Of a DNA stretch of 49,075 nucleotides, positions 2,227-25,306 are shown in pieces (position 1 is the first letter of the stretch; each line of letters begins with the position of its first letter). The notes below the pieces were generated by a model. The model saw only the letters and a program-made list of their open reading frames with translations, did no database searches and was not told the DNA's origin. Position numbers and translations under genes: made by a program. Location of the stretch: assembly GCA_017462645.1 (NCBI GenBank), contig JAFTQR010000031.1, positions 1 to 49,075 on the forward strand. The letters are read 5' to 3'. The DNA is from Acholeplasmatales bacterium. Its GTDB lineage: Bacteria; Bacillota_I; Bacilli_A; Acholeplasmatales; Anaeroplasmataceae.

Positions 2227-2697
2227 TTACTTCCTTTCAAATAAGGTATATCTAACTAATTCACTTTCCTCTTCCCAAATTAAATTATATTTTGAAAAAT
2301 CAATTGTAGGAAAATATTTATCTCCTTCATGTGTTCCCTTAATGTAAGATATATATAATCTATCTGCATAGGGTAGACATAATTTATAGATTGTAGAACC
2401 ACCTACAACCCAAATATCTTCATTGAAGCTTTGAATAAATGGAATAAGGTCATTAATAACTATTGCATCATCTAATACTAAATCCTTATTAATAGATGCA
2501 ACATATATTTTTCCATATGGTAAAGGCTTAGTTTTATAATAGCCTTTTAATGAAAAATATGTTGCCTCACCCATTAGTACAGTTTGACCTCTTGTTTTAT
2601 TTCTATAATAAACTAAATCTTCCTTAATATGCCATGGAATTTTATCACCAATACCGATCAATTGGTTTTCATCCATAGCCCAAATCATATTAATCAT
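2227..2697 (-). CDS. dfrA: Dihydrofolate reductase
   Basis: The 156-residue enzyme reduces dihydrofolate with NADPH and so restores the folate used up by thymidylate synthase. Family marks: [20 protein letters not shown] with the Trp-containing loop (IPWHIKEDL, with Glu as the acidic active-site residue), GQTVLMGEATY where the usual motif is G-R-T/K-T-W, and VVGGSTIYKL, the conserved GG-x-x-I/L-Y motif. It is coupled to thyA by a shared base, the classic pairing. The changed GQTVLMGEATY segment is slightly unusual. Confidence 0.93.
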   Translation of the reverse strand: MINMIWAMDENQLIGIGDKIPWHIKEDLVYYRNKTRGQTVLMGEATYFSLKGYYKTKPLPYGKIYVASINKDLVLDDAIVINDLIPFIQSFNEDIWVVGGSTIYKLCLPYADRLYISYIKGTHEGDKYFPTIDFSKYNLIWEEESELVRYTLFERK

Positions 2698-3569
2698 TAT
2701 ACTGCCACCTTACCCTTTATAGCCTTATGAGGATTATAATTTTCTAATGTGAAGTCCTCATATTTAAAATCAAAAATAGATTTTACATTTGGATTAATTT
2801 TCATTGTAGGTAATTCTCTTGTATCTCTTGATAGCTGAAGCTTAACCTGTTCCTCATGATTTGAATAGATATGAGCATCACCAATTGTATGAACGAAATC
2901 ACCTAAGTCTAAGCCACATACCTGCGCAATCATCATTGTAAATAATGCATAGCTTGCAATATTAAATGGAATACCTAGGAATACATCACCACTTCTTTGA
3001 TATAATTGACAAGATAATTTACCATTAATAACATAGAATTGCATAAAGCTATGACATGGAGGTAATGCCATTTGGTCAACCTCGCATGGATTCCATGCAC
3101 AGATAATTAATCTTCTACTATTTGGATTAGTTTTAATTTGATTAATTAGGTTAGATAATTGATCAATACCTTCACCATTAAAATCTCTCCATTGCTTACC
3201 ATAAACAGGTCCTAGCTCACCCCATTTAGCAGCAAATTCATTATCATTTTTAATTTTTAAAACAAATTCTTCTAATGTTTCATTTTTATATGAATCACTT
3301 TTTTTATATATTTCATATGGCCATTCATTCCAAATTTTAACATCATTATCAACTAAATACTTAATATTAGTTGAACCAGATATAAACCATAATAGCTCAT
3401 GAATAATTCCTTTTAGGAATACTTTTTTAGTTGTTAGCAAAGGAAAGCCCTTATTTAAATCAAATCTCATTTGATAACCAAATAAAGAATATGTACCTGT
3501 ACCAGTTCTATCTCCCTTATATGAGCCTTCTTCTAAAATTTTCTTGCATAAATCTAAATATTGCTTCAT
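2697..3569 (-). CDS. thyA: Thymidylate synthase
   Basis: ThyA methylates dUMP to dTMP using methylene-tetrahydrofolate. The 290-residue product has the N-terminal [19 protein letters not shown], the catalytic Cys in [12 protein letters not shown] (about residue 172), the nucleotide-binding [20 protein letters not shown] and C-terminal [10 protein letters not shown] ending in the usual hydrophobic Val. AGGTGA stands 7 nt before the ATG. It heads the operon thyA-dfrA-plsC-two small membrane genes. Its promoter region lies in a 69-bp segment that is repeated at 6865-6933 next to ssb. Confidence 0.97.
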
Positions 3570-3579
3570 AAAAAAATCA

Positions 3580-3610
3580 CCTAAATATATTATATAATAT
3601 ATTTTGTCAA
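3580..3610 (-). promoter_or_regulatory. Promoter-like region of thyA
   Basis: On the minus strand a perfect -35 TTGACA (3605-3610) is followed by an AT-rich stretch with TATAAT at only 10 bp spacing and TATATT at 15 bp spacing. The spacing is not ideal, so which -10 is used is unclear. The same arrangement occurs in copy B of the repeat. Confidence 0.45.
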
Positions 3611-3649
3611 AAAGGAAGAGAAAAAAAGAAAGCTAGCATGCTAGCTCTC
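3581..3649. repeat. 69-bp direct repeat, copy A (thyA side)
   Basis: This segment matches 6865-6933 in the same orientation at 68 of 69 positions; the only difference is A at 3599 against G at 6883. It holds, on the minus strand, the last codons GAG AGC TAG of the 275-residue lipoprotein, a perfect 16-bp palindromic terminator stem, a T-rich tract and a TTGACA promoter-like region leading into thyA. Confidence 0.95.
3618..3646 (-). terminator. Terminator of the lipoprotein gene
   Basis: The 16-bp perfect palindrome AGCTAGCATGCTAGCT at 3631-3646 is followed on the minus strand by TTTCTTTTTTTCTC. The stem contains the gene's own stop codon TAG. An identical terminator follows ssb. Confidence 0.8.
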
Positions 3650-4468
3650 TATTAAAGTATAACCTGTAATATCAATAGGCTTTAAATTAGTTGTTTTAAA
3701 TATAATATTAGATTCTGCCTCATAGTAGTAATATAATGTATTAACTATATTATCATTTGAAAAAATCTCTTCTTTGGTATATTGCATTTTCATTGAAGCT
3801 TCATTATCATTAAAAATATATTGAATTGTTGAAGTTATTTTTCTGCCATAATCAGCATCATTAATATCTAATGCAATGGTATATATGTTATTGTTTACAT
3901 AATATTTTCTTCCATCAATAGGTCTTGAATTTCCTAACCAGTTAGTAAAAAAATCAGAAAAACCATTATTAGACAAATTATTATAGATGAATTTTTCATT
4001 ATCAATTGAATAATTCTTATTGTTTATGTCTATGCGTATATTATTACTTGATTCTAATTGATATTGATATTCAGATAATGTATCCTTATCGCTAATTGAT
4101 ATATTTTCAGAATTATTTCCTTTTTCATAATGCTCATCACTATTTATTTTTTCATAAAATATTTTATTTATAGAATCATTTTTAGAAGTATTATGTTCAT
4201 TAATTTCATAATTATCTATAGTTTCTCCTTGCTTTTTATTAGATTTAGTATATGAGTTATATACATATACATAATCGGGATAGCTTTCAAATTCTTCCTC
4301 TGGACCTAGTATATCAATTGTTCTTTCAAGAAAATGATTATAAATTTCATCATATGTTACCTCAGTACCTTTTTCTTTAAAAAATGGTTCTTCCTTTTTA
4401 TTGCATGATGTAGTTATAAATGTAAACGTTAATATTATTATTAAAAAAAATATTTTTTTAAATTTCAT
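3641..4468 (-). CDS. Lipoprotein of unknown function, in the repeat-bounded cassette
   Basis: The 275-residue protein has a lipoprotein signal (hydrophobic stretch, then lipobox TTSC, Cys at about 22) and a Lys/Glu-rich start to the mature part, so it is probably tethered to the outer face of the membrane. The mature part is rich in Asn, Ser, Tyr and Glu; I recognise no domain. GGAGG precedes the ATG. It starts 12 bases after the 783-residue secreted protein and is probably co-transcribed with it. Its last codons, GAG AGC TAG, are the same as the last codons of ssb because they lie inside the duplicated 69-bp segment, which suggests this 3' end was formed when the cassette joined ssb-type sequence. 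Confidence 0.75.
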   Translation of the reverse strand: MKFKKIFFLIIILTFTFITTSCNKKEEPFFKEKGTEVTYDEIYNHFLERTIDILGPEEEFESYPDYVYVYNSYTKSNKKQGETIDNYEINEHNTSKNDSINKIFYEKINSDEHYEKGNNSENISISDKDTLSEYQYQLESSNNIRIDINNKNYSIDNEKFIYNNLSNNGFSDFFTNWLGNSRPIDGRKYYVNNNIYTIALDINDADYGRKITSTIQYIFNDNEASMKMQYTKEEIFSNDNIVNTLYYYYEAESNIIFKTTNLKPIDITGYTLIES

Positions 4469-4480
4469 AAGTTTTGCCTC

Positions 4481-6832
4481 CTATAACGTTAAGACTGTAA
4501 CATAAATATATAATGTGCCCGGTGTTCCAAAATATTCATTTATTGTTAAAATTATTGATTCTCCTTTATTTAAATTAATCGTCAATGAGGCATTTGGATC
4601 ATACACGTCATTTTCTTCATCAATATAATCACCATCATAGACATATGTCTTGCCATCATTTATTATTATCTCATTAAATTCAGTATCTAATATGCTGGAT
4701 GTTGATATAGTTAGTCTTTCATTAGTTTGTGCAGTGTATATTAACGTACAAGTATTATTTTCATTTATATATGTTTGAATTACTTCTTGTTCTTTAGAAT
4801 GAATGACATCATTAACTATATTCAATGAAATATTAGATAAATAGTTTAAATATTGATTAATAATTGTTATTTTATAAATTATATTCTTTTTTAATGTGAA
4901 TAAATAATTAGTTGAATTTGAGTTTGATAATTCAATTTCACTATTAATTGTAGTAGATGAGAATAATTTACGTGATATATTAATTGACAAATTATTATTA
5001 TTTAATTTAAATAGGTGGTTACTATTATTATCTGGTAAAAAATTAAATTCAATTGAATCATTTGAAATAATGCTTGTGTTCTTGAAAGATTTTATGGATA
5101 AAGATACATTTAATATGTTAGACGTATTACATTTTACCAAAATTAAATATTTTGTGTTTTCTTCTAATAAAAATGAATCATTAATTGTTTGAATATTTGT
5201 TTTTTCAATAGATGTTTCATTAACTTTATAAATAGAAGCAGTTTCTAATATGTTATCGCTATAATCTATAAGAGGTAAAGATGAAATTAATTGAAATTCA
5301 TTAAGTGTATTTATTCCTTTTAATGTGTATATAGCTGTATAATTTACATCTACAATAAAATTATAAACGTCAGAGTTTAATGAATTTGTTAAATAATTAT
5401 TTTCATTTAAAGTTCCCTCATCAAATAAATCATACTCAATTGAAGCAACAATTAAATTTTCAAAATCCTCACTGTCCCCATTTATCTTTCCACCAGTACT
5501 TATGTTATTTTCATCAGTTATAGAAAAACTAAAATTAATATAATTTTTAGTTGGTACTATAATTTCACTTTGTTCTTCAGCATAAAAAAAATCAACTACT
5601 ATATCATTAGAATTATATGTATTTATTGTATTTAAGTTTGAATGTATATCTCCAACATTTATAAAAATATTTTTAATTAATCTATTATAATAATCACATT
5701 GAAGTTTATGTTGATTAAAAAAAACGTAATTTTCACTAATAGGATTATGTTTAATTTCAATATCGCAAGTATTATCAATAAATATTTGAGATCCGACATC
5801 ATTAATAAATAAGATATATGATGCAGCAGTATTTAATTCACCAATTGCGAACACAAAAATATCAACTATAATATTATCTTTATCTTTTGATAGATTAATA
5901 TTTTCAAGTTTATAACCATCAGTACTATATTCATTACTATCAATAATAATTGAATACGTATCATATTCCATTGATACCTTTGTTAAAAAAAGTCCATTAT
6001 CATTGTAACAATTATAACCACTATCCTTATCATTTAATGTATATTTGTTTTCAACAATTGACGAAATTGCTAGATTATTCATATTGAAATTTGGTGTTTC
6101 TGGATATACATTCGGAATTATAATAAAATCTTCTGAATAACCTTCTTCAACAAGTACATTTAGTTCTTCTAAACTTGTATAATTTTGATTTTCTTTTAAA
6201 TAAATTTTATGGTCAGCCATATTTTCAGTTTCTATCGTATAATATCTTGCTGAAAATAATGGATTTAATTTAAATGTAGTTTGTAAAATTGAACTGTATG
6301 ATGGCTTTAAATATGTATAATCTATGATAAAAATATCTGAGACATATGCAAATCTTAAAGTTTTTGTGTTAAATTTGTTATAGTCTTCAACTATGTCATC
6401 TTTTATAAATGTTTTAATATAAAAACCATAATCAAGACCAAAATACGAATATTCACCAACCATTTTAAAATATTCTTCAGGAATTATTTTTGTAATTGCA
6501 TCAGAAGCATTAGCTATCAATCCAGCACCTTGTTCATAAATATTACCTCCATATTTAAAATAATCAATACTTGTCCCACTATTAGATTTATTAGAATACC
6601 TTAAATATTTATCATCTTCTAGTAAATAAATATATGAGTCAGCATAATCCTGAATATTATATTCGATGTCTAAATCATCAATTGAACTAATATCAACATC
6701 ATCCTTGTTTGTCAATAAGTTACATTTATCTTGTAAATTTATTGTATTATCATTAGCATAAATATCAAAATTAATAAAAGATGTAAAACAAAATGCTAAT
6801 AGTATAAAAATTAAAAATTTATTTATTTTCAT
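4481..6832 (-). CDS. Large secreted Asn-rich protein, unknown function
   Basis: The 783-residue product starts with a signal peptide (MKINKFLIFILLAFCFTSF, cleavage plausible after IYA near residue 27). The rest is very rich in Asn, Ile, Ser, Thr and Tyr, with alternating polar and hydrophobic residues that suggest beta-sandwich repeats. There is no sorting signal (LPxTG), membrane anchor or recognisable enzyme motif. GGAGG lies just upstream of the ATG. It forms an operon with the lipoprotein gene downstream, and both lie between two 69-bp direct repeats. A surface adhesin or cargo-binding protein is possible, but this is only inference from secretion and composition. Confidence 0.7.
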   Translation of the reverse strand: MKINKFLIFILLAFCFTSFINFDIYANDNTINLQDKCNLLTNKDDVDISSIDDLDIEYNIQDYADSYIYLLEDDKYLRYSNKSNSGTSIDYFKYGGNIYEQGAGLIANASDAITKIIPEEYFKMVGEYSYFGLDYGFYIKTFIKDDIVEDYNKFNTKTLRFAYVSDIFIIDYTYLKPSYSSILQTTFKLNPLFSARYYTIETENMADHKIYLKENQNYTSLEELNVLVEEGYSEDFIIIPNVYPETPNFNMNNLAISSIVENKYTLNDKDSGYNCYNDNGLFLTKVSMEYDTYSIIIDSNEYSTDGYKLENINLSKDKDNIIVDIFVFAIGELNTAASYILFINDVGSQIFIDNTCDIEIKHNPISENYVFFNQHKLQCDYYNRLIKNIFINVGDIHSNLNTINTYNSNDIVVDFFYAEEQSEIIVPTKNYINFSFSITDENNISTGGKINGDSEDFENLIVASIEYDLFDEGTLNENNYLTNSLNSDVYNFIVDVNYTAIYTLKGINTLNEFQLISSLPLIDYSDNILETASIYKVNETSIEKTNIQTINDSFLLEENTKYLILVKCNTSNILNVSLSIKSFKNTSIISNDSIEFNFLPDNNSNHLFKLNNNNLSINISRKLFSSTTINSEIELSNSNSTNYLFTLKKNIIYKITIINQYLNYLSNISLNIVNDVIHSKEQEVIQTYINENNTCTLIYTAQTNERLTISTSSILDTEFNEIIINDGKTYVYDGDYIDEENDVYDPNASLTINLNKGESIILTINEYFGTPGTLYIYVTVLTL

Positions 6833-6863
6833 GTAACCTCCATATGTATTTTTGCATAAAATT

Positions 6864-6894
6864 TCTAAATATATTATATAATGTATTTTGTCAA
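6864..6894 (-). promoter_or_regulatory. Promoter-like region of the cassette operon
   Basis: TTGACA lies at 6889-6894 on the minus strand, with TATAAT and TATATT downstream in the same arrangement as in front of thyA. It would drive the 783-residue gene from about 30 bases upstream of its start. Confidence 0.4.
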
Positions 6895-6933
6895 AAAGGA
6901 AGAGAAAAAAAGAAAGCTAGCATGCTAGCTCTC
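6865..6933. repeat. 69-bp direct repeat, copy B (ssb side)
   Basis: This copy matches 3581-3649 with one mismatch. It contains the last three codons of ssb (GAG AGC TAG), the ssb terminator palindrome and the TTGACA promoter-like region that now leads into the 783-residue protein. The distance between the copies is about 3.28 kb. Confidence 0.95.
6902..6930 (-). terminator. Terminator of ssb
   Basis: The palindrome AGCTAGCATGCTAGCT (6915-6930) is followed on the minus strand by a T-rich tract; the ssb stop codon lies in the stem. Confidence 0.8.
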
Positions 6934-7272
6934 ATCTTCCTTATCCTGTGCGTCTAAATCATCAAAATATACTACACGATCAGCGATAAGATCATTAATA
7001 GGAATAACGGCGCCTGTGGATATTGTTTCTTTGCGTGGGCTTATTCTACCTTTAATTCCTATTCTTTTTCCTTTTTTAAGTGAATCGATACATAGATCAA
7101 TTAATGCATCCCAAATTGATACACGAATGTAATCCTTTGAATAGCTTCCATCTGCGTTTTTGAAGTCTCTAGTGACAGCTAAAACTACATTAACAACCTT
7201 TTTACCATCCTTAACCTCTCTAACTTCAACGTCATATGCGATTACACCTACAAGCATGAAATAATTATACAT
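6925..7272 (-). CDS. ssb: Short single-stranded DNA-binding protein
   Basis: The 115-residue product is the OB-fold domain only: YFMLVGVIAYDVEVREVKDG, VVNVVLAVTRDFKN, DYIRVSIWD and KGKRIGIKGRISPRKE follow the SSB order. The long linker of housekeeping SSB is missing and the tail is short and acidic (DDLDAQDKEDES) without the typical DDDIPF tip. The length resembles the second SSB (SsbB type) of Bacillus. It is not next to rpsF or rpsR, which supports a second, specialised copy. A near-perfect AAAGGAGG stands 5 nt before the ATG. Its last three codons and terminator are duplicated at 3641-3649. Confidence 0.87.
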   Translation of the reverse strand: MYNYFMLVGVIAYDVEVREVKDGKKVVNVVLAVTRDFKNADGSYSKDYIRVSIWDALIDLCIDSLKKGKRIGIKGRISPRKETISTGAVIPINDLIADRVVYFDDLDAQDKEDES

Positions 7273-7493: not shown

Positions 7494-8216
7494 TTATTTT
7501 CCAGCAAGCTCTAGACTTATTTTCATCATGTTATGGAATGAATTTTGTCTTTCCTCTGCAGATGTAACCTCATGAGTTATAAATGAATCAGAAATAGTTA
7601 ATAAACATGCTGCTTTTTTATTAGATGCTTTTGCGTTTGCGAATAAGGCAAAGCTTTCCATTTCTACAGCCTTACAGCCAAATTTATCATGAACATTCTT
7701 CCATCTATTAGGATCTTCTGCATAGAATACATCTGAAGAATGAATTCTAGCCTCCTTTAATTCTATTCCAAGCTTATTTGCAGCCTTTCTAAGCTTATTA
7801 TTTACTGAAGTATTACTCTTCATAGTTTTAGCTCTAAAATTAAAAGCAACCTTAGCATAATTTGATTCAGAATATGCATCAGTAACTAATACAGTATCAT
7901 AGACGTTAAGCTTTTCATCATATGAGCCTGCAGAACCAATTCTAACTATACACTCTACATCATAGAAATTAAATAGCTCATATGAATAAATACCAATTGA
8001 TGGTTGTCCCATACCAGAGCCCATTACACTAATTCTTTTACCATTGTATTTACCTGTGTAACCTAATATATTACGAGTTGATGTAAAGCAAATTACATCT
8101 GTTAAATATGTATCCGCAATAAATTTAGCACGTAATGGATCACCAGGCATTAATACAGTTTTAGCGATTAATGATGGGTCACTACAACTAATATGCGGAG
8201 TTGGAATTTTGCTCAT
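7494..8216 (-). CDS. deoD: Purine-nucleoside phosphorylase, DeoD type
   Basis: DeoD splits purine (deoxy)nucleosides with phosphate to base and (deoxy)ribose-1-phosphate. Visible family marks are [12 protein letters not shown] near the N-terminus, [31 protein letters not shown] with the ribose-binding Met-Glu, and LTISDS with the catalytic Asp. I chose the second ATG (8216): GGAGG is 9 nt upstream of it but only 3 nt from the first ATG at 8222, and MSKIPTPHI matches typical starts. It overlaps the 3' end of the damaged deoC, the usual partner in deoxynucleoside breakdown. Confidence 0.94.
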
Positions 8217-9892: not shown

Positions 9893-12589
9893 TTATTTAG
9901 AAATAATTGTTTTACATCTTGGACATAGCTCATCCTCATCAACGAATGGGACAATCATCCAGCATCTAGCACATGTATGACCTTGTGCAGGTGCTACATC
10001 TACCTTGAATTCATTTCCGTCTTTAAATTCTAATTGTGAAACAATTAATAATTGAGCGGCTTGTTCCTTAATAGGCTCAAATACCTTTTTAGCATTACTA
10101 TCTAAAGTAATAGTAAGCTTAGCATTGAAGCTCTTACCAATAATCTTTTGGCTTCTTGCTTCCTCTAAAGCCTTTAATACGATGTCTCTATATTTCATAA
10201 ATTCATCTAAATTAGCCTCAAGGCTAGAGTCTAAATTAGAATCAACCTCTGGCATATTAGTTAAATATACATCCTCTGCTTGCTTATATTCTAAAGAATC
10301 ATATGCTTCAGACATAGTATGAGGAAGAATTGGAGTTAATAGCTTAATTAATGCATTTAAAATTTGATAGAAAACTGTTTGTGTAGATAATCTCTTATTT
10401 GATTTTGGATCTTCAATATATAAAATATCCTTAGTAAAGTCTAAATAGAATGCTGATAATGTATTTGCGATATAAGCATTAACATTTCTATATACCTCAC
10501 CAAAATCAAAATTATCATAATTATCTTTAATTTGCTTAATAAACTTTTGAAGCTTAATATACATATATTTATCTACTTCCTCGAGCTTATCATAAGGTAA
10601 TGAATCACTAGTATTGAAGTCAGATGTATTAGTTAATAAGAATCTTAATGTATTTCTAATCTTACGATATGATTCAGATACTTGCTTTAGAATATCTTTA
10701 GATAAAGGCATATCAGCACGATATTCGATAGATGCAACCCATAATCTTAGGATATCAGCACCTGATTCATTACATACCTTAATAGGATCAACTGTATTAC
10801 CTAAAGACTTAGACATCTTTCTTCCTTCACCATCTAATGTGAAGCCATGAGATACTACTGTCTTATATGGTGCAACACCAGTTGTAGCAACACCTGTAAT
10901 AATTGATGAATTAAACCAACCTCTATATTGATCTGAGCCCTCTAAATATAAATCTGCAGGATATTGTAATCCTCTTCTCTTAAGTAACATGTATGATGAG
11001 CCTGAATCAAACCAAACATCCATAATATCTGTTTCTTTTCTAAAGATTCCGTTAGGGCTACCAGGATGAGTAAAGCCCTCAGGTAATAAATCCTTAGCTT
11101 CTCTTTCAAACCAAACATTAGATCCATATTGTCCAAATAATTCAGCAACATGCTTTAAAACGTCTTGATCAATAATTTCTTGATCATTTTCAGCATAGAA
11201 TACTGGAATAGGTACACCCCAAGCTCTTTGACGAGAAATACACCAATCATGTCTATCCTTAATCATATTAGAAATACGTACATCACCCCATTTTGGATTC
11301 CATGTTACATTTCCAATAGCTTTTAGGATATCATCCTTAATTGGATCAATAGATGCAAACCATTGAGGAGTGGCTCTAAAGATTACAGGCTTCTTAGTTC
11401 TCCAGTCATGAGGATAGCTATGGCAAATCTTAACACATTTCATTAAGCATCCACAAGCATCCATGTCCTTGATAACTTCTTCATTACAGTTGGCATAGAA
11501 CATTCCCTCATATCTACCTGCTTCCTTCATCATATAACCCTTTGAATCAACAGGACATAAAATATCTAAGCCATATTGCTTACCAACCATAAAGTCATCC
11601 TCACCATGACCAGGAGCGATATGAACTAAACCAGTACCATCTGTAGTTGATACATAATCACCTAAAATACATGGTGATACTCTATCATATAATGGATGCT
11701 TATATTTTAAGCCTTCTAATTCTGTACCCTTATGATAGCTTATAATTTCAACATTTCCTAATTCTAATAATTCAGTAAGCTTTTCTAATAGCTCTCTACC
11801 AAAGATAAATTTACCCTTTTCAGTATTAGCTACAACATATTCAATTTGAGGACCAGCACATACTGCAAGGTTTGCAGGTAATGTCCATGGTGTTGTAGTC
11901 CAAACTAGGAATGCAGCATCCTTAAATGCTTCACTGCCCTCTACTACTGGTAGCTTAAAGTAAATTGATGAATCCTCTTTATCCTTATATTCAATTTCAG
12001 CCTCTGCTAAGGCAGATTCACTAGATGGTGACCAATATACTGGCTTTAAGCCCTTATAAATTAAACCTCTTTCAGCCATTTTAGCAAATACTAAAATTTG
12101 ATCACGCTCAAAGTCATGCTGTAATGTAATATATGGATTTTCATAATCAGCTAAAACACCTAGACGCTTAAAGCCCTTCTTTTGACGTTCAACCTGCTTA
12201 TAAGCATATTCAGTACATAAATCTCTAAATTCAGCTGTAGTTTTATCCTTACGAGATACACCAGCCTTTTGTAATGCATTTTCAATTGGTAAGCCATGAG
12301 TATCCCATCCAGGAATATATACTGACTTATATCCATTCATATTCTTATATCTTACAACAAAATCTTTAAGGATTTTATTTAAAGCATGACCTAAATGGAT
12401 ATCACCATTTGCATATGGAGGGCCATCATGTAATGTATATTCTCTTTTACCCTCATTCATTGCTATTCTTTTATTATAAAGATCCATCTTTTCCCATTTT
12501 TCTTGAATTAATGGTTCCTTATTATTAAGATTACCTCTCATTTCAAAGCTTGTTTTACCCATATATAGGGTATCCTTATAGTCCTTCAT
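9893..12589 (-). CDS. ileS: Isoleucyl-tRNA synthetase
   Basis: IleS charges tRNA-Ile and edits mis-charged valine. The 898-residue protein shows the HIGH motif (PYANGDIHLGHALNKILKD, about residues 57-75), PGWDTHGLPIE, editing-domain WTTTPWTLPAN, SRQRAWGVPIPVFY, DVWFDSGSSY, the KMSKS motif (EGRKMSKSLGN) and a C-terminal zinc finger (CARCW and CPRC). That is the bacterial type-1 IleS domain order and normal length. Transcription is controlled by the T-box leader directly upstream. Confidence 0.98.
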   Translation of the reverse strand: MKDYKDTLYMGKTSFEMRGNLNNKEPLIQEKWEKMDLYNKRIAMNEGKREYTLHDGPPYANGDIHLGHALNKILKDFVVRYKNMNGYKSVYIPGWDTHGLPIENALQKAGVSRKDKTTAEFRDLCTEYAYKQVERQKKGFKRLGVLADYENPYITLQHDFERDQILVFAKMAERGLIYKGLKPVYWSPSSESALAEAEIEYKDKEDSSIYFKLPVVEGSEAFKDAAFLVWTTTPWTLPANLAVCAGPQIEYVVANTEKGKFIFGRELLEKLTELLELGNVEIISYHKGTELEGLKYKHPLYDRVSPCILGDYVSTTDGTGLVHIAPGHGEDDFMVGKQYGLDILCPVDSKGYMMKEAGRYEGMFYANCNEEVIKDMDACGCLMKCVKICHSYPHDWRTKKPVIFRATPQWFASIDPIKDDILKAIGNVTWNPKWGDVRISNMIKDRHDWCISRQRAWGVPIPVFYAENDQEIIDQDVLKHVAELFGQYGSNVWFEREAKDLLPEGFTHPGSPNGIFRKETDIMDVWFDSGSSYMLLKRRGLQYPADLYLEGSDQYRGWFNSSIITGVATTGVAPYKTVVSHGFTLDGEGRKMSKSLGNTVDPIKVCNESGADILRLWVASIEYRADMPLSKDILKQVSESYRKIRNTLRFLLTNTSDFNTSDSLPYDKLEEVDKYMYIKLQKFIKQIKDNYDNFDFGEVYRNVNAYIANTLSAFYLDFTKDILYIEDPKSNKRLSTQTVFYQILNALIKLLTPILPHTMSEAYDSLEYKQAEDVYLTNMPEVDSNLDSSLEANLDEFMKYRDIVLKALEEARSQKIIGKSFNAKLTITLDSNAKKVFEPIKEQAAQLLIVSQLEFKDGNEFKVDVAPAQGHTCARCWMIVPFVDEDELCPRCKTIISK

Positions 12590-14864: not shown

Positions 14865-16612
14865 TATAAAGCACCTCCTTCATTAGAGGAAATTTTATTT
14901 TGAATGTCATGTACCTCTTTATAAATTTGATTATTAGCTAATAATTCATCGTGTGATCCAATACCATCAATATGTCCACCATCTAATACAATAATAATAT
15001 CTGCATCACTTACTGAAGATATTCTTTGAGCAATAATTATTTTAGTAGTATCAGGTAAATATTTTTTAAAGCTTGAGCGAATAATTGCATCAGTTTTAGT
15101 ATCAACAGCACTTGTTGAATCATCTAAAATTAAGATTTTAGGTGATTTTAATAATGCTCTTGCGATACATAATCTTTGTTTTTGACCACCAGATACATTA
15201 GTACCACCTTGGTCAATATGAGTTTCATATTTATCAGGGAATCTATTAATAAATTCATCAGCACAGGCTAGATGACATACATGCTCTAGCTCCTGTTGTG
15301 TTGCATCCTTCTTACCCCATCTTAAATTCTCAGCTATTGTACCTGAGAATAAAACATTCTTTTGTAATACAACTGAAACCATATCTCTTAATGTTTTTAA
15401 ATCATATTCCTTAACATTTTTACCAGCTACTAATAATTCACCCTCAGTAACATCATATAATCTAGAAATTAAATTAACTAATGTTGTTTTGGCAGAGCCA
15501 GTACCACCAATAATACCTACTGTAGCACCAGATGGAATACTTAAATTTATATTTTCTAATGCGAATTTTTCTGCTTTTGTACTATATTTAAATGAAACAT
15601 TCTTAAACTCAATTGAACCATTATTAATTTCATAAATAGGATTTTCTGGATTCTTTAGAGTACTTTCTTCTTTTAATACCTCTGCAATTCTTTTACCACC
15701 AGACATAGAAATACTTATCATTACAAATATAAAATTCAAAAACATAATGGCATTTAATATTTGTATGTTATAAGTTAATAAAGCTTGTAAATCACCAACA
15801 TTTAAATCTAGTCCCCATGTATCTAATATTATATGAGCACCTAAAATACAAACAATAATTAAGGTAATATTCATTGCAAAATTCATAACTGGAGAATTAA
15901 TCGCAACAATTCTTTCTGCTTTAGTAAAATCATTACATACCTCATCAGCAGCTTTATCGAATTTATCTTGCTCATAATCCTCTCTTACATATGTTTTTAC
16001 TACTCTTATACCATTAATATTTTCTTGAATAGATTCATTTAATTTATCATATTTCTTAAATACCTTATCAAATAATGGCATAGCACATTTAGCAACAATA
16101 AAGAAGCTTAAGGCAACTAATGGAGCGATACATAAAATAATACCTGCTATTTTAGCATTTAAAGTAAATGCCATTATAATAGAAAATATTAGCATTAAAG
16201 GAGAACGAACAGCCGTTCTTATGATCATACCATATGACATTTGAACATTGGCTACATCTGTAGTCATTCTAGTTACTAATGATGATGCACTAAATTTATC
16301 TATATTTTCAAATGAGAAATCCTGTATCTTATAATATAAATCATGTCTTAAATTTTTTGCAAATCCTGATGCTGCCTCTGCAGCATATTTTGCGGATAAA
16401 AAACCAAATAATAAACCTAATGATGCTAATACTACTAAAGCTATCATTAAATAAATCATTATTTTTATATTATTATCCTCCATTCTATTTATTAGCTCAG
16501 CTGTTAATAATGGTAAGCAGCATTCCATTATAACCTCTAAAGTAACAAATAAAGGAGTTAAAATACTAGCTTTTTTATATTCTCTAATACTTTTCATTAA
16601 TATTTTGAACAT
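14864..16612 (-). CDS. Heterodimeric ABC exporter, degenerate-site subunit
   Basis: The 582-residue half-transporter has six N-terminal membrane helices and an ATPase with altered catalytic residues: Walker A is GGTGSAKTT (Ala replaces Gly before Lys), Walker B is ILILDDSTSA (Asp in place of Glu) and the switch is IIAQRIS (Gln for His), while the signature VSGGQ is normal. This is the pattern of heterodimeric exporters in which only one of two ATP sites is fully active. It is the first gene of a two-gene operon with a strong promoter and GGAGTG before the ATG. Confidence 0.93.
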   Translation of the reverse strand: MFKILMKSIREYKKASILTPLFVTLEVIMECCLPLLTAELINRMEDNNIKIMIYLMIALVVLASLGLLFGFLSAKYAAEAASGFAKNLRHDLYYKIQDFSFENIDKFSASSLVTRMTTDVANVQMSYGMIIRTAVRSPLMLIFSIIMAFTLNAKIAGIILCIAPLVALSFFIVAKCAMPLFDKVFKKYDKLNESIQENINGIRVVKTYVREDYEQDKFDKAADEVCNDFTKAERIVAINSPVMNFAMNITLIIVCILGAHIILDTWGLDLNVGDLQALLTYNIQILNAIMFLNFIFVMISISMSGGKRIAEVLKEESTLKNPENPIYEINNGSIEFKNVSFKYSTKAEKFALENINLSIPSGATVGIIGGTGSAKTTLVNLISRLYDVTEGELLVAGKNVKEYDLKTLRDMVSVVLQKNVLFSGTIAENLRWGKKDATQQELEHVCHLACADEFINRFPDKYETHIDQGGTNVSGGQKQRLCIARALLKSPKILILDDSTSAVDTKTDAIIRSSFKKYLPDTTKIIIAQRISSVSDADIIIVLDGGHIDGIGSHDELLANNQIYKEVHDIQNKISSNEGGAL

Positions 16613-17996: not shown

Positions 17997-19127
17997 CTAA
18001 AAAATAAAGCATTCCTTAAAAATAGAGCACATTACTTCCCACAAATTCTTCTTTTTAACCTCTTTATTAGCTGATATTTCACCATTAGCTATAATATTAT
18101 TACCTAAATATATATCAATAGTACCATTATAGCTATCATTATATTTATATTTATAGCTATATTCATTCTTTTCATTCTTTTTACAAAGATAATATATATC
18201 TTCTTTAATAACAATATCAAATTTATTTTTATAAAGAATATGATCAATCGATTTTAAGCATAAATCCTTAGCTAATATCTTTTCAAGCTTATAATTATTA
18301 AATCCATATTTTAATAATTCTAATGATTCACTATTTCTAGTTGTTGATTTATCATATCCAAAAACAACACTTATAAGCTTCATATTATTTTGCTGCATAT
18401 GTAATGTTATACAATATCCAGAAAAAGATGTATAACCTGTTTTAAGACCGTTTAAACCATCTACTCTACCAACCATTTTATTTGTATTAACAAGCCAAAA
18501 TGGATTATCCGTATCCTTTCTTATATAATCCTCTTGTATATTAGTGTAATTTAAAACATCAGGATATTTTGTAACTAATTCTCTTGAAATTAAAGCCATA
18601 TCATAGGCTGATGAGTAATGATTTTCTTTACTTAATCCAGTACAATCACTAAAACATGTATTTTTACAGCCTAGCTCTAAAGCTTTTTGATTCATTTTTT
18701 GAACAAAATGAGCTTCACTTCCTTCTATTTCCATTGCTAATAATACTGCACAATCATTTGCTGAGGCTACACATAAGGATTTTATTGCCTCATCAACTGA
18801 AATTTGCTCACCTACCTCTAAATAAACTTGGCTTCCGCCCATAGATGCAGCGTATTCTGGTACTACTAGCATTTTATTTTTATCTAAAATATTATTATCC
18901 ATAGCCTCATATATTAATAATAAGGTCATTATTTTGGTCATAGATGCAGGTGATAGCTTTTCATGTATATTTTTTTCATATAATATTTCACCTGTTGATT
19001 CCTCCATTAAAATACCTGATTTAGCACCATTAATAAATGCTCCATCTATTGTATTAGCATTTAATGATAATGGTTTTAATAAAATTGATATAGAAATAAC
19101 AAAAATAAAGATTATAAGTTTTTTCAT
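17997..19127 (-). CDS. D-alanyl-D-alanine carboxypeptidase (low-molecular-weight PBP)
   Basis: The 376-residue enzyme removes the terminal D-Ala from peptidoglycan stems. A signal peptide (MKKLIIFIFVISISILL) precedes the three active-site motifs: SxxK in SPASMTKIMT (about residue 61), SxN in VASANDCAV (about 122) and KTG in LKTGYTSF (about 228). A beta-rich C-terminal domain follows and the last about 20 residues (NLWEVMCSIFKECFIF) could be an amphipathic anchor. The family includes vegetative DacA and the sporulation enzymes DacB and DacF; sporulation genes in this window make DacF possible, but I cannot decide. It is divergent from the GNAT gene. Confidence 0.92.
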   Translation of the reverse strand: MKKLIIFIFVISISILLKPLSLNANTIDGAFINGAKSGILMEESTGEILYEKNIHEKLSPASMTKIMTLLLIYEAMDNNILDKNKMLVVPEYAASMGGSQVYLEVGEQISVDEAIKSLCVASANDCAVLLAMEIEGSEAHFVQKMNQKALELGCKNTCFSDCTGLSKENHYSSAYDMALISRELVTKYPDVLNYTNIQEDYIRKDTDNPFWLVNTNKMVGRVDGLNGLKTGYTSFSGYCITLHMQQNNMKLISVVFGYDKSTTRNSESLELLKYGFNNYKLEKILAKDLCLKSIDHILYKNKFDIVIKEDIYYLCKKNEKNEYSYKYKYNDSYNGTIDIYLGNNIIANGEISANKEVKKKNLWEVMCSIFKECFIF

Positions 19128-23671: not shown

Positions 23672-23709
23672 AAAAATATCCAGAGATAATCTCTGGATAT
23701 ATTTTTTAT
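23671..23709. terminator. Terminator between ribU operon and lipoprotein gene
   Basis: A 10-bp stem (ATATCCAGAG with CTCTGGATAT) lies between A- and T-runs, so it can serve both convergent units. Confidence 0.85.
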
Positions 23710-24407
23710 TCAACTTTTACAAATTCAGCTTGGAATAGAACTTCACCTTGAGTTACTTTTGTAATCTTTCCATCAGCAAATTGGAATACTTGTGGCTTAT
23801 TAAGCACATCGATTGTTAAATCAGTACCATCTAATGTATATGTACCAACATATGATTCTTCATAATCTTGATCTGTAATACCAACAATATAAGTTACATT
23901 AGTTTCAGTAAATACAAATTTAATGTAATAGCCATTTTGAACCATATCATAACCACCAGAATCATACTTTGTACAATTCCAAGTACCGATAAGGCTTGTT
24001 GAATCTACATTAGAATCACCTTCAGGTTCTTCAGTTTCAACCTTACCATATTCTATGTATTGAGTATAACCTTCAACTTCCATTTCAACAATTATTTTGC
24101 CATCTGATAATGTTGCATTTATTGTTTCACCTTCAATAGTAATTGATATTTTATCGCCATCAATTGTATATGTTCCTTCAACTGAATAGTCAGCAGCACC
24201 TGCTACAGCAACACCATTTTCTTTTAATTCAAGGAAGGTACCTTCTCCGGCAGCCATGTCTGTTACATCTTCGCCACCCATTTCCATTTTAGTGATTTCA
24301 TATCTACCAAGATATTCTCCATTACTTTCATCACCACTACATGAAACTAAAGTAATAGATAAAACAGCTAGTAGCATTACTAAAAATGCTTTAAAAAATT
24401 TTTTCAT
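23706..24407 (-). CDS. Lipoprotein with two lipocalin-like domains
   Basis: The 233-residue protein has a lipoprotein signal with lipobox LVSC (Cys 23). It contains two similar beta-rich units, about residues 32-122 (YLGRYEITKMEMGG, then VEGTYTIDGDKISITIEG) and 139-233 (LIGTWNCTKYDSGG, then VGTYTLDGTDLTIDV). The pattern fits lipocalin-like domains of secreted gut-Firmicutes lipoproteins. Its signal peptide is very like that of the 129-residue paralog at 24892-25281. A decayed third member lies between them. GGAGGAATTT precedes the ATG. The ligand is unknown. Confidence 0.8.
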   Translation of the reverse strand: MKKFFKAFLVMLLAVLSITLVSCSGDESNGEYLGRYEITKMEMGGEDVTDMAAGEGTFLELKENGVAVAGAADYSVEGTYTIDGDKISITIEGETINATLSDGKIIVEMEVEGYTQYIEYGKVETEEPEGDSNVDSTSLIGTWNCTKYDSGGYDMVQNGYYIKFVFTETNVTYIVGITDQDYEESYVGTYTLDGTDLTIDVLNKPQVFQFADGKITKVTQGEVLFQAEFVKVE

Positions 24408-24440
24408 ATTAAATTCCTCCGTATCGTTCTTTATAATTTA

Positions 24441-24469
24441 ATTATAGTAGATAAAATAAAAAAATGCAA
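24441..24469 (-). promoter_or_regulatory. Promoter of the 233-residue lipoprotein
   Basis: TTGCAT (24464-24469), a 17-bp spacer and TATAAT (24441-24446) on the minus strand. The -35 overlaps the terminator of the upstream pseudogene. Confidence 0.65.
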
Positions 24470-24489
24470 GATAGATTCTTACATTTTAT
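24459..24489 (-). terminator. Terminator of the lipoprotein pseudogene
   Basis: The stem TGTAAGAA...TTCTTGCATTTTTTT form on the minus strand is imperfect, and it closely resembles the terminator at 24855-24883, as expected if gene and terminator were duplicated together. Confidence 0.55.
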
Positions 24490-24504
24490 ATTTTCATATA
24501 TAAA

Positions 24505-24852
24505 TTAATTTGTTTTTACTGGAACATCTGGTGTATCGCTAATTTTTTCAAATTCAAGACCAGATACAGTAGTACCATCTATACTAGTATGTATAAAACT
24601 TAATTTATTATCAATAATTTCACCTGTTAAAATCAAATCTTACCTTCATCATCTTTAACAAAATATGAAATATTGTCTTTATCTACTTCGTATGTACCTG
24701 ATTGTTTGCTATCTAATATAATCATTTCAAAAGAATAATTCTCATTAAACAATAAATACATATCAACATTAGGTTGCCCATCATCAGTTCTTACACCATT
24801 TATAATGCTATATTGGTTTATTGCTATATAAGCACCAACAATATTTTTTCAT
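24505..24852 (-). pseudogene. Decayed lipocalin-like lipoprotein gene
   Basis: The roughly 350-base stretch encodes, in two frames, pieces of a protein like its neighbours. One frame (about 24840 to 24638) reads NIVGAYIAINQY, then SGTYEVDKDNISYFVKDDEG before a TGA; the other frame continues as DLILTGEIIDNKLSF and GLEFEKISDTPDVPV to TAA at 24505. A single one-base shift near 24640 would join them. The promoter, ribosome site and signal peptide are missing: the terminator of the upstream gene is followed almost directly by the domain. Both the deletion and the frameshift indicate loss of function. Confidence 0.78.
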
Positions 24853-24854
24853 TT

Positions 24855-24883
24855 AAAAAATGCAAGAATTTCTTCTTGCATTA
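24855..24883 (-). terminator. Terminator of the 129-residue lipoprotein
   Basis: AAATGCAAGAA and TTCTTGCATT pair around a short loop and are followed on the minus strand by TTTTTTAAAT. Confidence 0.8.
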
Positions 24884-24891
24884 ATTAATTA

Positions 24892-25281
24892 TTAAGCCTT
24901 AGTAAGCTTCATTGAGAATACAGTACCATCAACATTTTCTGAAATAGTAATTGTATTACCTGAAATTGTACCAGATTGAGGATCACCATCAATTGTAATT
25001 GTGATAGTTTCACCATCAACAGTGTATGTACCTTCCATTGATTCAGACATACCCATCGCAGATACTGTCATTGTAGCCTTACCATCTTCAGTAAACTCCA
25101 TACTAATTGTAGCACCTTCACCCATCATTGCAATATAGTCTACGTCGCCAACCTTATATTCAGTTACATTCCATGTACCTACAACTCCACTAGCACCTTC
25201 ATTGTCATCCTTACATGATGCTAATGTTAATGTTAATACTGCTACTAACATTACTAAACACATCTTTAAAAATTTTTTCAT
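24892..25281 (-). CDS. Lipocalin-like lipoprotein
   Basis: The 129-residue protein has lipobox LASC (Cys 23) and one lipocalin-like domain (GVVGTWNVTEYKVGD, then MEGTYTVDGETITITIDG). It is a single-domain paralog of the two-domain lipoprotein at 23706-24407; their signal peptides share most residues. GGAGGAAATTT precedes the ATG. It is driven by a consensus promoter that carries a 16-bp palindrome in its spacer, so it may be tightly controlled. No ligand can be inferred. Confidence 0.82.
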   Translation of the reverse strand: MKKFLKMCLVMLVAVLTLTLASCKDDNEGASGVVGTWNVTEYKVGDVDYIAMMGEGATISMEFTEDGKATMTVSAMGMSESMEGTYTVDGETITITIDGDPQSGTISGNTITISENVDGTVFSMKLTKA

Positions 25282-25306
25282 ATCAAATTTCCTCCTATAT
25301 GTCTAT

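Follow-up and report, generated by a model that had tools for sequence, protein, structure and literature searches.

The window, meaning the whole stretch of 49,075 nucleotides that was analysed, is contig 15 (C15) of a metagenome-assembled genome (MAG) of 1,005,578 bp, which consisted of 47 contigs and was 65% complete. The features of the locus under study were all located on the minus strand. The ssb (6925..7272) and thyA (2697..3569) genes were both intact and formed the upstream and downstream neighbours, respectively, of two genes encoding a 783-aa exported protein with a signal peptide (4481..6832) and a 275-aa lipoprotein (3641..4468). These two genes, and nothing else, were enclosed by a 69-bp direct repeat, as had been reported in a preliminary description of the sequence. 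The unique insert between the repeat copies (3650..6864) was 3215 bp long, had a G+C content of 22% and was missing from the ssb-thyA junction of the relatives.

On recheck the repeat proved exactly as described: the copies at 3581..3649 (thyA-proximal) and 6865..6933 (ssb-proximal) were 69 bp long, had starts 3284 bp apart and were identical at 68 positions, the single mismatch being A at 3599 versus G at 6883. A search of the whole 1.0-Mb MAG revealed no third copy. Further, the MAG was rebuilt and the 300 bp before each module of one to three genes were aligned with the 300 bp after it (n=2,462). The insert between ssb and thyA scored 133 and ranked third of all modules, the 99th percentile being equal to 36. 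Scores above 100 were recorded for five modules only, and the next best score was 58.

Each copy of the repeat contained the end of the gene before it with its stop (GAG AGC TAG), a terminator hairpin and a TATAAT sequence, the first two of which had also been noted in the preliminary description. In the ssb-proximal copy, the end of ssb was followed by its terminator hairpin and T tract (6912..6933) and by a TATAAT (6873..6878) positioned 46 nt upstream of the start of the 783-aa gene, probably a captured −10 element. In the thyA-proximal copy, the duplicate of the terminator (3627..3650) closed the lipoprotein gene, and the TATAAT (3589..3594), located 25 nt upstream of the thyA start, was the conserved −10 element of thyA. 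Two terminator-like sites, one per repeat copy, were found between 3400 and 7400, when 0.3 were expected. The ribosome-binding site of the 783-aa gene (GGAGG, 6837..6841) was situated within the insert, and that of thyA (GGTGATT, 3575..3581) was kept in the relatives.

The promoter-like TTGACA region attributed earlier to each copy was upheld in part. The TATAAT was credible as a −10 element, since it was kept upstream of thyA in the relatives, but it formed no canonical −35/−10 pair with TTGACA because the two were separated by 10 nt only. No −35 box stood out at normal spacing, so that promoter capture is argued for by the conserved −10 element only; promoter-like matches around the insert were at chance level (41 versus 41.6 expected). 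Apparently, the duplication provided the gene pair with a −10 element and a terminator, and thyA kept its own. With 69 bases of the target copied upon insertion, a promoter-like element and a terminator would have become available to the newcomer genes at no loss to the neighbours.

The ssb-thyA interval was compared among the relatives. The two genes were adjacent in 18 other genomes of the genus, with 104-203 nt between the protein matches, and the 783-aa/lipoprotein pair was present in none of them; elsewhere in the genus, the two genes were on different contigs or thyA was not found. These 18 empty sites supported the earlier proposal that the pair had entered the junction by duplicating the junction DNA. 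In most relatives, the interval consisted of a terminator located at the ssb stop or beyond it, a TATAAT and the GGTGATT ribosome-binding site. The relatives carried a single terminator and a single TATAAT in the order seen in the window, the segment being present once. Of 23 relatives, 22 had a TATAAT within the 60 nt preceding thyA, usually between −22 and −26, the expectation being 0.19 per shuffled sequence. The nearest empty site, that of genome G017, read GAGAGCTAA, the stem, TATATTATATAATATAAAATAGGTGAT and ATG, and could be aligned to both repeat copies. With repeats at both borders of the insert and one copy of the segment in the empty sites of the genus, the locus had the make-up of an insertion flanked by duplicated target DNA.

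No 783-aa protein was detected in other genomes of the taxonomic family at the threshold used. The only match to the lipoprotein in that family (genome G016, E 9.5e-4) was rejected as spurious, as it overlapped an ABC ATPase. Given the empty junctions and the lack of the 783-aa protein in the other genomes of the family, an insertion in the lineage of the window was the simplest reading. Separately, in genome G020 (L050, contig C37) the ssb-thyA junction was found to hold an unrelated gene for a small membrane protein with a zinc-ribbon-like end, which had its own terminator and signals and no direct repeats; the junction therefore tolerates insertions.

The borders of the insert were also informative. 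At the upstream border, the insert began after ...TATTTAG with a 5' leader and its own GGAGG site. At the downstream border, the reading frame of the lipoprotein entered GAG AGC TAG, which is the ending of ssb. Lipoprotein paralogues encoded on contig C39 (~30% identical) ended with ...YTYIE and ...YTRKD, and the 275-aa lipoprotein ended with ...YTLIES, which suggests that its extra final residue and its stop came from ssb. The ssb genes of the relatives shared the stop/terminator stem ending with the ssb of the window. Both lines of evidence bore out the earlier suggestion that the 3' codons of the lipoprotein gene had been built from ssb. Since that ending is shared and the paralogues end about where it begins, the 69 bp is, as judged from these alignments, derived from the target, the ssb-thyA junction. 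Apparently, the original stop codon of the insert was lost and the ssb stop and terminator were adopted in its place; the joining perhaps occurred at a short GAG-like microhomology where the lipoprotein gene meets the ssb ending. The G+C content of the insert corresponded to the 3.7-3.8th percentile of the genes of the genome; being low but within range, it did not prove a foreign source.

Based on these results, we consider it probable that the region between ssb and thyA recently received a two-gene surface module, 69 bp of the target being duplicated in the process. It was proposed that a module of an exported beta-rich protein and a lipoprotein entered between the two genes, and that the duplicated target comprised the last codons and stop of ssb, the ssb terminator and the −10 element of thyA. 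The incoming module would have carried its own ribosome-binding site, no terminator and probably no promoter. The pair would then be transcribed from the duplicated −10 region of thyA, transcription ending at the duplicated ssb terminator, and thyA would retain its own −10 element and ribosome-binding site. As for the physical mechanism, the long duplication may have arisen when ends were joined illegitimately, in a microhomology-type reaction, either at a staggered break or through template switching. A literature search on such duplications found no direct precedent for long ones in bacteria. The locus would represent a clean, recent and natural case in which genes were acquired with no mobile element in sight, and in which a new operon could become expressible, with neither neighbour harmed, because the event duplicated the target's terminator and promoter element.

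Recombination between the repeats could cleanly remove the pair and leave ssb-terminator-TATAAT-AGGTGATT-thyA. Judging from the architecture, such a clean excision is plausible, and excision or switching of the locus is possible. Should this recombination take place, the locus would act as a simple on/off switch for a surface protein.

The same architecture is exactly that of a single-crossover (Campbell-type) insertion-duplication, in which direct copies of the target flank the insert and deletion by recombination restores the target. The pair might thus circulate as a circle with one 69-bp copy, excised from another strain of the species, and enter an empty site by a single homologous crossover, the locus being a recombination-driven presence/absence switch. 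We regard this exchange as unlikely: the insert carried no replication or transfer gene, neither a circle nor an empty allele was seen, and the model, although it covers the spread within the species, leaves the initial joining of a cassette to the ssb-thyA segment unexplained. The locus also differed from Campbell-type integration in that it had no known donor circle, vector or recombinase and in that one end of the insert lay inside a gene end. The proposed insertion with target duplication shares with homology-facilitated illegitimate recombination, as outlined in PMC3240628, the joining of foreign linear DNA without an element, one or both ends being illegitimate. In that process one end is homologous, and duplication of the target is not a defining feature, whereas 69 bp were duplicated in the window.

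Both proteins of the pair were searched against family collections, as suggested in the preliminary description, and neither belonged to a catalogued family. The 783-aa protein had no match in Pfam, NCBIfam, PADLOC or PHROGs, and the 275-aa lipoprotein had neither a leucine-rich repeat (LRR) nor a Pfam match. Two genomes of the order gave weak matches, and a profile search then placed the 783-aa protein in an uncatalogued family with the core DDPIVxIIPRxxF...YLYIGxEYGFYIxT...LNxGDxGY...DNGxF. The distribution of the family was patchy (22 of 160 genomes of the order), and members also occurred in MAGs of named Acholeplasmatales, Clostridia and Christensenellaceae. The searches thereby uncovered large exported proteins, encoded in Acholeplasmatales-like Bacilli and in Clostridia, that form a family missing from the catalogues. 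Two further members were encoded in the genome of the window, one of 454 aa on contig C42 and one truncated by the end of contig C26. Across genomes the members were found at differing loci, commonly adjoining a co-oriented lipoprotein gene, an LRR_5 protein or a fused ABC-FtsX transporter. This recalls the BspA-type LRR lipoproteins and FtsX-type ABC transporters, but the 275-aa lipoprotein was not of the LRR type and no transporter was present at the ssb-thyA locus.

The structure model of the 783-aa protein was poor (mean pLDDT 51). Part of this model resembled the collagen-binding (ColG)/pre-peptidase C-terminal (PPC) beta sandwiches in a Foldseek search, with TM scores (target) of 0.54-0.61, which at such a pLDDT and with no Pfam match is to be taken as a lead only. 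The model of the N-terminal domain (pLDDT 62) matched no solved fold. A toxin reading was rejected, as the hits with the top Foldseek E-values (HA3 of C. botulinum and others) had TM scores of 0.10-0.15 only. For the 783-aa protein, ligand binding at the surface is, as no more than a guess, the likeliest role, and the pair as a whole probably has a surface role, likely in ligand or matrix binding.

The 454-aa exported member on C42 (L124) was likewise enclosed by direct repeats, of 105 bp and 92% identity (16484-16588 and 18011-18114). The repeat consisted of a promoter-like sequence, a 5' leader, a ribosome-binding site and ATG, and its downstream copy served a GGDEF-type gene, whose orthologue in genome G015 had different neighbours. 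In genome G083 (L185), a family member was located downstream of a purine riboswitch aptamer, and a diverged second copy of the leader followed the module (7556-7675 and 11444-11577); because the leader is a riboswitch and its second copy has diverged, this repeat was weaker evidence. A set of 715 modules from the same loci served as controls; compared with them, the C42 and G083 cases and that of the window were at the very top and most other members were at the control level. The notion that the family is always bounded by repeats was therefore rejected. Since most members had no such repeats, the repeats are probably target duplications rather than element ends, and the 69-bp repeat marks one insertion event and is no standard component of a cassette. 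The repeats would fit target duplications visible only while young, or a small chance enrichment. Two of the five strongest flanking repeats of the genome surrounded members of one family, which is suggestive at a small sample size. On this basis it may be speculated, with considerable doubt, that the family spreads by an undescribed route to gene junctions, where ~70-130 bp of regulatory DNA belonging to the following gene are duplicated; each newcomer would thereby be supplied with a promoter or leader ready for use, and excision of the locus would remain possible.

The C42 repeats, different in sequence from those of the window, could also be taken to indicate that the pair was a passenger mobilised by an integrase or a transposase acting in trans, the 69-bp repeats being attachment sites or a long target-site duplication. 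We hold this to be very unlikely. The repeat length varied and most family members had no repeats; the inserts of the window and C42 had no common ends, and no shared motif was found at their borders. No recombinase was encoded inside or adjoining the insert, whose two genes included neither an integrase nor a transposase, in agreement with the preliminary description; this sets the insert apart from an integrase-type genomic island. Transposon target-site duplications similarly place target DNA as direct repeats on either side, but they are usually much shorter than 69 bp, and the insert had no inverted pair at its ends except for the palindromic terminators. Features of an integron cassette were not found either: GTT was absent from both strands of the 69 bp, and no integrase was among the open reading frames of the window. 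Scans of the pair with PADLOC and PHROGs and for plasmid, phage and viral relatives were all negative.

An artefact of a mixed metagenome assembly might be suspected for a MAG of 47 contigs, but it was judged highly improbable. A misjoin at a repeat presupposes the repeat at both ends of the insert, and the 69-bp sequence was found nowhere else in the MAG; moreover, the copies differed by one base and the lipoprotein frame continued into the ssb-derived stop. That the pair was ancestral at the junction and was lost everywhere else by recombination between the repeats, which would produce the clean junctions seen, is hardly credible, as this requires loss in at least 18 lineages and persistence of the 68/69 identity in fast-changing intergenic DNA, and the pair was absent from the junction in the genus outgroups within the family.

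The three other strong flanking repeats of the genome, one on contig C30 and two on contig C41, were set aside, since they enclosed unrelated genes and looked like shared leaders. The strongest of the genome (L123, C41, 3958-4129 and 5100-5271) was a 173-bp direct repeat of 91% identity with a hairpin and a leader around a module of 219- and 86-aa genes. On C30 (L112), direct repeats of 82% identity (198-305 and 1090-1201) flanked a gene for a 207-aa membrane protein; they matched no Rfam family at its cut-off and are possibly an undescribed leader RNA. In the window itself, two lipoprotein genes (233 and 129 aa) at 23706-25298 had start regions that were 81% similar, representing a tandem lipoprotein duplication. 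Finally, the second pair on C41 (18721-18842 and 19899-20020), which had no Rfam match above the cut-off, consisted of 81% similar 5' leaders before a putative cation exchanger and the next gene (AAAGGGAGTAG...CTCGGGCTC), and these look like tandem copies of a metal-sensing leader.
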